Positions 20,101 to 23,100 of a DNA stretch of 32,099 nucleotides are shown in pieces. Location: assembly GCF_000003605.2 (NCBI RefSeq), contig NW_003133843.1, forward strand, positions 608,048-640,146, given 5' to 3'. Position 1 is the first letter of the stretch. Each line of letters begins with the position of its first letter. A model generated the notes under the pieces. The model saw nothing but the letters and a program-made list of their open reading frames with translations. It searched no databases and was not told the origin of the DNA. The stretch is from Saccoglossus kowalevskii (lineage: Eukaryota > Hemichordata > Enteropneusta > Harrimaniidae). Both the position numbers and the translations under genes were made by a program.

Positions 20101-23100
20101 TATCCATTGAGACTATCGTGAATGGAATATAAATGAATAAACTAATTCCTCGATGTGTCCTGTTGTCGACCAAGAAAGGTGTTAAAATACTTCCTCCACA
20201 CATTCTACTTTTCGAAAATTGTGAATCACCAGTTTGCAGGGGGGAAAAAATCAGTGCTGAAACTCACTTCCGCGATGGGTTTAAAAAAATTCTGTCGGTA
20301 CGACACAACATTCTGATTGGTTAATGAAAGACTTGACCTGTTAGGTCAAAGGACGTTGTTTTAGGTCAAATCGCGCTGAAAAAAACATGGTGGAAATAAT
20401 TTTTCATCAAGAATTTGCGTATAATCGAAAACGTCACACAACAAAGATAATGATAAAGAGTTGCCTTTGTCTGTTTTCCCACAGACCCTACCCATATTTA
20501 CACCGTAAATTCAGACGATATAACCATATTGTAATAACGTGTTTGTTTCTTCATTGTGAAAGTGTTGTGGAAATCAGTGATGACTTGTTTCGCTTTTTTT
20601 TTTTCTTCAAAAAGACGTAATATTACCCGAGCCAGGCCTGGTGAATGAAAGATGTAATTTGGATAATTTTTCATGGGTTACAATGTTAAACCAAAAAAAA
20701 AAATCATCTTTTCTGAGGTGGTCTTCGAGTATAAGCCCACCCCTTACCTTCCCCGATTTTTCATGTTGATGCCCTTGGGCTTATGATCGGGAAAGTATGG
20801 TAATAAAAATTATCATCCAAATATACATGTATATCATATCAATGCATGGCAATATAAGTCAATATTGGATTTGAAATACTATGAAATCCTGAAGTTGTAT
20901 TTGTTTAACTCAATCGTTCATAAATGCATGTGCAAGACAGTAACAGCGCTCGTCATAAACTTTGAATATGACAAACAAATTGCTGACATAATCAAACAAC
21001 ATAACGCGCACTAGAAACCCTCTTGAAGGTTTTTTTAAGAACCATCAGGAAATGTGTCCAACCTTAAATGATTCAAGTTAAAATATTGGCTTACAGAAAA
21101 TGAATACTTGTGATCTTCTAGACGCTGTAATGACATGGTCCTCACTAGTGGAAGTATCACTGCTTCCCTTTTCTGTTTAGGAGATTGTGGTGATAAATTT
21201 ATTTCTGCATCGGCAGCCGCTTGCAATGATGTATCAACTGGATTTGCTTTATCCTCAGGATTTTCATTGTCTTTTTCTTCCGAATTGTGATCAAGATTCA
21301 TCACCTCCTCTATCAAATTATCACCAGTGTTTACTACCGGTTTAGTATCACTTTTCTCATTCACAGTTTCTCCCTCAGGTTTAGTATCAGTTTTCTCATT
21401 CACAGTTTCTCCCTGAGATTGAGTATCACTTTCCTCATTCAGAGTTTCTCCCTCAGGTTTAGTATCAGTTTTCTCATTCACAATTTCTCCCTCAGGGTGA
21501 GTATCACTTTTCTCATTCACCGTTTCTCCTTCAGGTTTAGTATCAATTTCCTCATTCACAGTTTCTCCCTCAGGTTTAGTATCACTATCAGTTTTCTCAT
21601 TCACAGTTTCTCCCTTAGATTGAGTATCACTTTCCTCATTCACCGTTTCTCCTTCAGGTTTAGTATCACTTTCCTCATTCACAGTTTCTCCCTCAGGGTG
21701 AGTATCACTTTTCTCATTCACTGTTTCAGATTGAGTAGATTCGGTCTCTTTCACAGATTCTTCCACAGGTGAAGTATTACTCATCACTTTCTCATTTGTG
21801 TTCCCATATCTATGAGCATCATAATATTGTTTTTCGTCCTCATAAACCTCCAAATTTTCTAAATCAGGACCTTGTCTTTCCACTGTTACACTATTAAACA
21901 AGAACATAGTATAATTAATATAACCTCACTAAACAAGCAGCCTGTCGACTGAGATAGCTCCGCTGTTAGCAATGCGCATTGCAATTAAAGAACAGAAGAT
22001 ATCATTAGAAAATGAACAATATGTATAGTATCAAAGCAATTGGACTTGCTGTTTTCAACAAGAATTCAAAAATATCACTTCACCAAAAATGACAAAAATA
22101 TTCATCAAAATTAGATAACTGAAGATATCATCATGAAGTGAACAAATCTGAGAGAGGTTCACATGTAGTACCTATATATGTAATATCAAAGCAATTAGAC
22201 TTGTAGTTTTTAACTAGAAGTCGAAAATATCACTTTTTACCAAAAATTACAAAAATATTTACCAAAATTAGAGAATTAAAGGTATCATTACAAAATGAAC
22301 AAATCTGAGAGAGGTCCACATGTAGTACATATATATGTATTATCGAAGCAATTGGACTTGCGGTTTTTAACAAGAAGTCGAAAATATCACTTTTTACTAA
22401 AAATGACAAAAATATTCACCAAAATTAGAGAACTAAAGATATCATCATAAAATGAACAAATCTATGAGAGGTCTACCCAAGGTACATATACACCAAGTAT
22501 CAAAGCATTCAGGCTTGTAGTTTTCAAAAAGAAGTCAAAAAAGTAAAACATTGACCATGGAAGGTACTAACGGAAGGAGCGACGACGCTATTGCCATGAT
22601 CGTTTGTCAATGTTTGTTCAGAAACATTGGTTCTCGTTAGCTCTTAACACCATCGTACAATGGGTTACGCTAGTCTTGAGCATTCGGTAATATTTGGAGC
22701 ATGTTCGGAAGCGATAGACAAACCTCGCATGTACAATGCTGAAAATGGCGTCTAGTTTGAATGCTGTTGTTTCCGGAGATCTTGGCAAACTTTAATGAAA
22801 AATTGGCAGATATAACATTGATTGAAGAAGAACTGATGAACTATCGTGAAACTTTTTGTATTTGAAATGGTGATGAGACTTAATCAATGATTGCCGGTGA
22901 TAATAACGACTGCATTATTCAATGGAACCATTGTCATTGCGTGGGTTTGACGCCCGAAACTATTGAAATTTTCGACCACCGGGCATCGACGAACACCACC
23001 AGAAAAGATAGTATCAAAAGAAGGGCATGCCTAGACACTTTCTCTGTGATAATATTTTTTAGGAGTCCTTAGGAATTTTTGTTGTAGACACTCGAAATTT

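Follow-up and report, generated by a model that had tools for sequence, protein, structure and literature searches.

The analysed window comprises 32,099 nt of the genome of Saccoglossus kowalevskii (assembly GCF_000003605.2, contig NW_003133843.1, positions 608,048-640,146 of the forward strand). It contains a predicted complete gene of the GPR107/108 family, whose spliced frame is open over 2214 nt and encodes a protein of 737 aa. The fourth exon of this gene carries a tandem array of ten short acidic units. A summary of the features of the locus, including their position, strand and the basis on which they were delimited, is presented in Table 1.

Table 1. Features identified in the analysed window (coordinates refer to the window; aa, residues of the predicted protein)
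Feature	Position	Strand	Basis and remarks
Predicted complete 13-exon gene of the GPR107/108 family, ATG to TGA	11025..30798	-	splice sites placed by reading; all 12 introns GT-AG; Pfam GOST_TM
Exon 2, N-terminal part of the predicted lumenal domain	24664..24843	-	gene model; sub-threshold CAND6-7_N match
Exon 3, predicted lumenal domain with Cys100	23854..23954	-	gene model
Exon 4 (796 nt), acidic linker	21095..21890	-	initial phase 2, final phase 0; bounded by AG and GT
Candidate decayed units flanking the array on the N-terminal side of the protein	21728..21796	-	weakly indicated by shuffles
Ten-unit acidic array (aa 182-313)	21332..21727	-	unit reading, TRF and shuffles
Units 1-5, first five-unit block	21527..21727	-	unit reading
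Unit 4 (15 residues)	21610-21566	-	inside the first block
Units 6-10, second five-unit block	21332..21526	-	last unit with diverged tail
Furin-type motif KQKR (aa 365-368)	21167..21178	-	sole hit of the pattern [RK]x[RK]R in the protein (737 residues); motif only; position from exon-4 coordinates
Exon 5, C-terminal part of the predicted lumenal domain with Cys415	19195..19305	-	gene model

Proteins of the GOST family are described as carrying a GOLD domain on top of seven helices and as having roles in traffic (PMC9711517), and a survey of choanoflagellate receptors treats GPR107/108 as a single family that has homologues throughout the eukaryotes (PMC12716839). The predicted protein matches the GOST_TM family (PF06814) over the entire profile (positions 1-246 of 246, protein residues 448-692, E 4.3e-50), with a score of 171.1 bits vs. 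a cut-off of 25.2. A crude hydropathy scan resolved six hydrophobic stretches downstream of the linker instead of seven, and we give the profile match more weight than this count; the scan also revealed hydrophobic 19-mers at residues 1-19 and 8-26, so that the protein has a hydrophobic start, a candidate signal sequence. The initial annotation had described the gene as a GPR107 orthologue. Membership of the GPR107/108 family is upheld by the full-profile match, but the finer label is not, since the profile spans a wider family. The gene looks like a member of the GPR107/108 side of the GOST family, and the narrower label GPR107, which stems from the initial annotation, is putative.

Exon 4 alone produced no Pfam family match at E 1; weak matches to TMEM128, 8xMP, Vpu, DUF4222 and SpoIVA_C, all below the cut-off, were set aside. 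The seven-helix part had no relative in the viral contigs searched (2 pattern matches, none confirmed), and the array had none in bacterial and archaeal contigs (120 pattern matches, none confirmed). Given the collections covered, both results are silent on animal orthologues.

The array consists of ten head-to-tail, in-frame, stop-free units, nine of which are 13 codons long, while the fourth has 15 codons due to a 6-nt insert. The units follow the consensus ETVNE(K/E)(S/T)DT(K/H/Q)(P/S)EG, with further single changes. This composition of the array, as proposed in the initial annotation, was confirmed by re-reading the minus strand and by TRF; its position had been given as 21335..21730, which lies 3 nt off the range determined here. 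TRF reported 39 bp x 9.8 copies with 84% matches at 21339-21727, and the same segment also fits 201 bp x 2.0 copies with 91% matches. When the exon was analysed alone, the TRF score was 654, whereas dinucleotide shuffling of this exon gave no score above 84 (500 shuffles, 10 of which gave hits of at least 50). The array is thus real and far beyond chance. Its units are arranged in tandem, their length is a multiple of three and they are read in frame within an open exon, so that it is a protein-coding minisatellite. On the opposite (+) strand, the segment 21230-21772 is open over 180 codons from stop to stop, an outcome favoured by a repeat period divisible by three; it was not taken as a gene.

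The order of the units was analysed by comparing their nucleotide sequences at increasing lags, with the 6 extra nt of unit 4 left out by our own choice. Mean identity peaks at lag 5 (0.933), compared with 0.855-0.905 at lags 1-4, 0.865 at lag 6 and 0.846 at lag 7; the second-highest value is that of lag 3 (0.905). When the order of the units was permuted, the lag-5 value was equalled in 0.9% of 200,000 trials (p 0.009), and the best value over lags 2-6 was reached in 2.3% (p 0.023). Three of the lag-5 pairs are mutual nearest neighbours, namely units 1-6 (38/39), 3-8 (36/39) and 4-9 (39/39), but the other two of the five are not: units 2 and 5 are closest to each other, unit 7 is closest to 4 and 9, and unit 10 is closest to 2. 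The proposal that a five-unit block was duplicated as a whole is therefore retained only in part, as the superperiod has moderate support and the block copy is not clean. The history that fits best is the copying of a five-unit block followed by exchange between units, with lag 3 also carrying signal.

Both edges of the array were inspected for decayed units. At the upstream edge, which is N-terminal in the protein, the scores of three DNA queries were reached in 21, 5 and 8 of 1000 codon shuffles, and two protein queries did not stand out there, their scores being reached in 81 and 293 of 1000 shuffles. These values weakly suggest that the array may formerly have been longer on this side. On the downstream side, decayed units are not supported, since the DNA scores were reached in 124, 91 and 219, and the protein scores in 700 and 424, of 1000 shuffles.

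The array contains 42 D/E and 13 K/R residues, which gives a net charge of -29 in 132 residues. The reading of the repeat as an acidic spacer, here of low complexity, is supported. The linker as a whole (residues 131-365) has a net charge of -47, vs. -2 in each of the lumenal segments at its sides (residues 24-130 and 366-446). The mean hydropathy of the array (0.31) falls below the charge-hydropathy boundary (0.49), where disordered chains are found. An AlphaFold2 model of exon 4, obtained in a single-sequence run and hence weak, has a mean pLDDT of 46.7 and shows the array without helix or strand. The array is probably an acidic disordered chain, as these predictions suggest. Upstream of it, at 21821-21844 of the minus strand (aa 143-150; position from exon-4 coordinates), tyrosines 143, 149 and 150 lie in acidic surroundings, which is the rule of thumb for tyrosine sulphation, and could be sulphated in the Golgi.

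Synonymous and replacement changes were also compared among the units. Between units, pN/pS amounts to 0.80 (bootstrap range 0.33-3.9). The variable nucleotide columns are distributed over the three codon positions as 5, 4 and 4; therefore, the sequence of the unit looks little constrained. Five of the 13 codon columns (E1, N4, E5, D8 and T9) are invariant, which may be a sign of constraint or simply of copying in the recent past. Comparison of the two blocks gives a pS of 0.10 and a pN of 0.06, from 4 and 9 counted changes, respectively. The check among units that the initial annotation had proposed thus reveals no clear purifying selection, and neither purifying nor positive selection is demonstrable from it. 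One abstract describes new repeat copies in general as being under relaxed and positive selection (PMC5120217), and a study of human protein repeats characterises them as mostly ancient, with none showing strong recent duplication or deletion (PMC3995336), which calls for caution before the array is assumed to be young.

The position of the array relative to the lumenal domain was examined with the profile CAND6-7_N. All scores obtained (21.1-24.4 bits) lie below the cut-off of 27.4. The N-terminal half of the lumenal region alone matched positions 1-79 of the 132 of the profile (21.7 bits), and after removal of the linker (taken as aa 133-368, i.e. 236 residues, 56% of which are contributed by the array) the match extended over positions 1-117 and spanned the join (24.4 bits), a gain of only 2.7 bits. 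The C-terminal half alone gave no profile match. A phmmer search with the linker-less lumenal domain returned no GOST chain; its two weak archaeal matches, PH0355 (E 0.014) and PF0455 (E 0.21), were set aside. The array had been placed between the N-terminal domain and the seven helices. Because the sub-threshold match continues across the removed linker, the array seems instead to interrupt the lumenal domain, presumably of the GOLD type, and not to part it from the helices; the profile data suggest this interruption, and do no more than suggest it. We infer that the array lies on the lumenal side of the membrane.

The linker contains the furin-type site of the GPR107/108 family, at the level of a motif, in the form of KQKR, which ends at residue 368, 55 residues after the end of the array; it had not been noted in the initial annotation. 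This motif has no arginine at P4, where furin prefers one. Three cysteines precede the first helix: Cys9, within the hydrophobic start, and Cys100 and Cys415, which flank KQKR. The original paper behind the furin requirement of GPR107 is reportedly that of Tafesse et al. 2014. This work appears in the reference lists of PMC9711517, PMC10451959, PMC7689464 and PMC6469816, and a review describes human GPR107 as a TGN-localized protein whose N-terminal domain needs furin (PMC10451959).

The linker of human GPR107 and GPR108 is probably shorter and is not known to be repetitive. The protein analysed here shares with them (i) GOST_TM over the full profile, (ii) the hydrophobic start and (iii) a furin-type motif in the lumenal linker, and it differs in the ten-unit acidic tandem array within that linker. 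Among solved structures, the best sequence match is TMEM87A (8kb4, 8htt, 8hsi and 8ctj), a distant relative, to which the seven-helix region was aligned (residues 427-714, best E 2.1e-7); no match was returned for the lumenal part before residue 427. The array also matched chains of TUBGCP6 (query residues 24-129, E 9.5e-5), and a weak match to a model of an NCKX/SLC24A1 exchanger covered residues 156-341 of the protein (E 0.011). Both are unrelated proteins, and we judged these matches to be probably compositional; unlike them, the present array is located in a linker predicted to be lumenal, with a furin-type site close by. No title on such an array was found among those listed for GPR107 or for repeats in general. 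Coding repeats varying in copy number are likely to occur in approximately 1 in 20 human proteins, according to the estimate given in one abstract (PMC1273636). As a repeat the array is genuine but rather ordinary, a protein-coding minisatellite within a linker that is probably disordered; its interest lies in its place shortly before the predicted furin site of a little-understood Golgi factor.

We consider it likely, with a probability of roughly 0.7, that a minisatellite in the linker exon of this GPR107/108-family gene encodes an acidic, probably disordered and tolerated lumenal spacer, which forms the tail of a cut fragment. Slippage or unequal exchange would have multiplied the 39-bp unit, whose length is a multiple of three, within the linker exon, and a block of approximately five units was probably copied once in the process. 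The strongly acidic chain would then reside in the Golgi lumen, as a loop that seems to interrupt the GOLD-type domain ahead of the furin-type site, and its length would be tolerated because the loop lies outside the folded core. If the protein is cleaved as reported for human GPR107, the array would end up as the free, acidic tail of the lumenal fragment, and the flanking Cys100 and Cys415 may tie this fragment to the membrane fragment. If the chain has any role, it would be to keep the cut site exposed, as a bulky, charged spacer that does not stick. An acidic expansion of this size, occurring naturally a short way ahead of a predicted cut site, would show the tolerance of the linker and, if the length of the array varies, would provide a natural length series.

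The abundance of D/E in the array and the concentration of negative charge in the linker relative to its lumenal flanks, together with the five invariant codon columns, would also suit a functional tail binding cations or cargo with low affinity (calcium, manganese or a basic ligand), whose charge is kept by selection; a calcium- or ligand-binding spacer had been proposed in the initial annotation. We regard such a tail as unlikely, as purifying selection among the units is not clear (with a wide bootstrap range), the array contains no S-x-E, the motif of the secretory-pathway kinase FAM20C (0 occurrences), and the search with the array returned no solved relative of known binding role, TUBGCP6 being its only match. 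A further reading is quite improbable, namely that an acidic tail specific to the lineage and variable in length adjusts the lumenal fragment that furin cuts from a retrograde-traffic factor, the length of the array setting cargo or ion binding or the speed of cutting.

Two further explanations question the array as assembled or as translated. The likeness of the blocks (91% at period 201) and the presence in the same gene of a run of 292 Ns (18206-18497), which is either a gap or withheld sequence, would be in keeping with the idea that two haplotypes or reads had been mis-joined within the repeat, inflating the five-unit block. This is improbable: the blocks differ at 13 of the 195 compared bases and by the 6-nt insert and are therefore not a mechanical copy of one stretch (diverged haplotypes could differ equally), and a protein search of the same genome (572 Mb in 4830 contigs; 149 of 335 candidates scored) found one full copy of the repeat exon and no second contig carrying it. 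Very improbable, and with nothing observed in its favour, is the excision of the array as an internal cryptic intron, giving a protein that lacks it, since the frame is open through the 796 nt, GT-AG sites lie at both ends of the exon, and the skipping of the whole exon would shift the frame (phase 2 at its start, phase 0 at its end).

The own-genome search yielded one further match among the scored candidates (L002; 37% identity, E 2.7e-8), which is a 39-bp-period repeat read in one open frame. At the DNA level, 27 of 300 shuffles of the unit matched it at least as well, and it was therefore set aside as a relative. This repeat (positions 1453-1900 of L002) is open in more than one frame and lies beside Ns, and its DNA is not detectably related to the array.

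Several other repeats were observed in the window. Two related elements are located in introns of the gene, at 17733-19138 (1406 nt, including the 292 Ns) and at 26199-27565 (1367 nt). They have inverted ends (CAGGGTTCTCCCCAG; CAGTGTTCTTCCCAGG, with one mismatch) and are flanked by 5-base direct repeats, TAACC and AAATA, respectively; they resemble DNA transposons, probably non-autonomous ones. The intron between exons 3 and 4 contains a 157-bp tandem array (3.3 copies; 22019-22541), approximately 130 nt from the repeat exon, and upstream of the first exon lies a degenerate array of short period (19 bp, 24.4 copies; 31430-31888), both detected by TRF.
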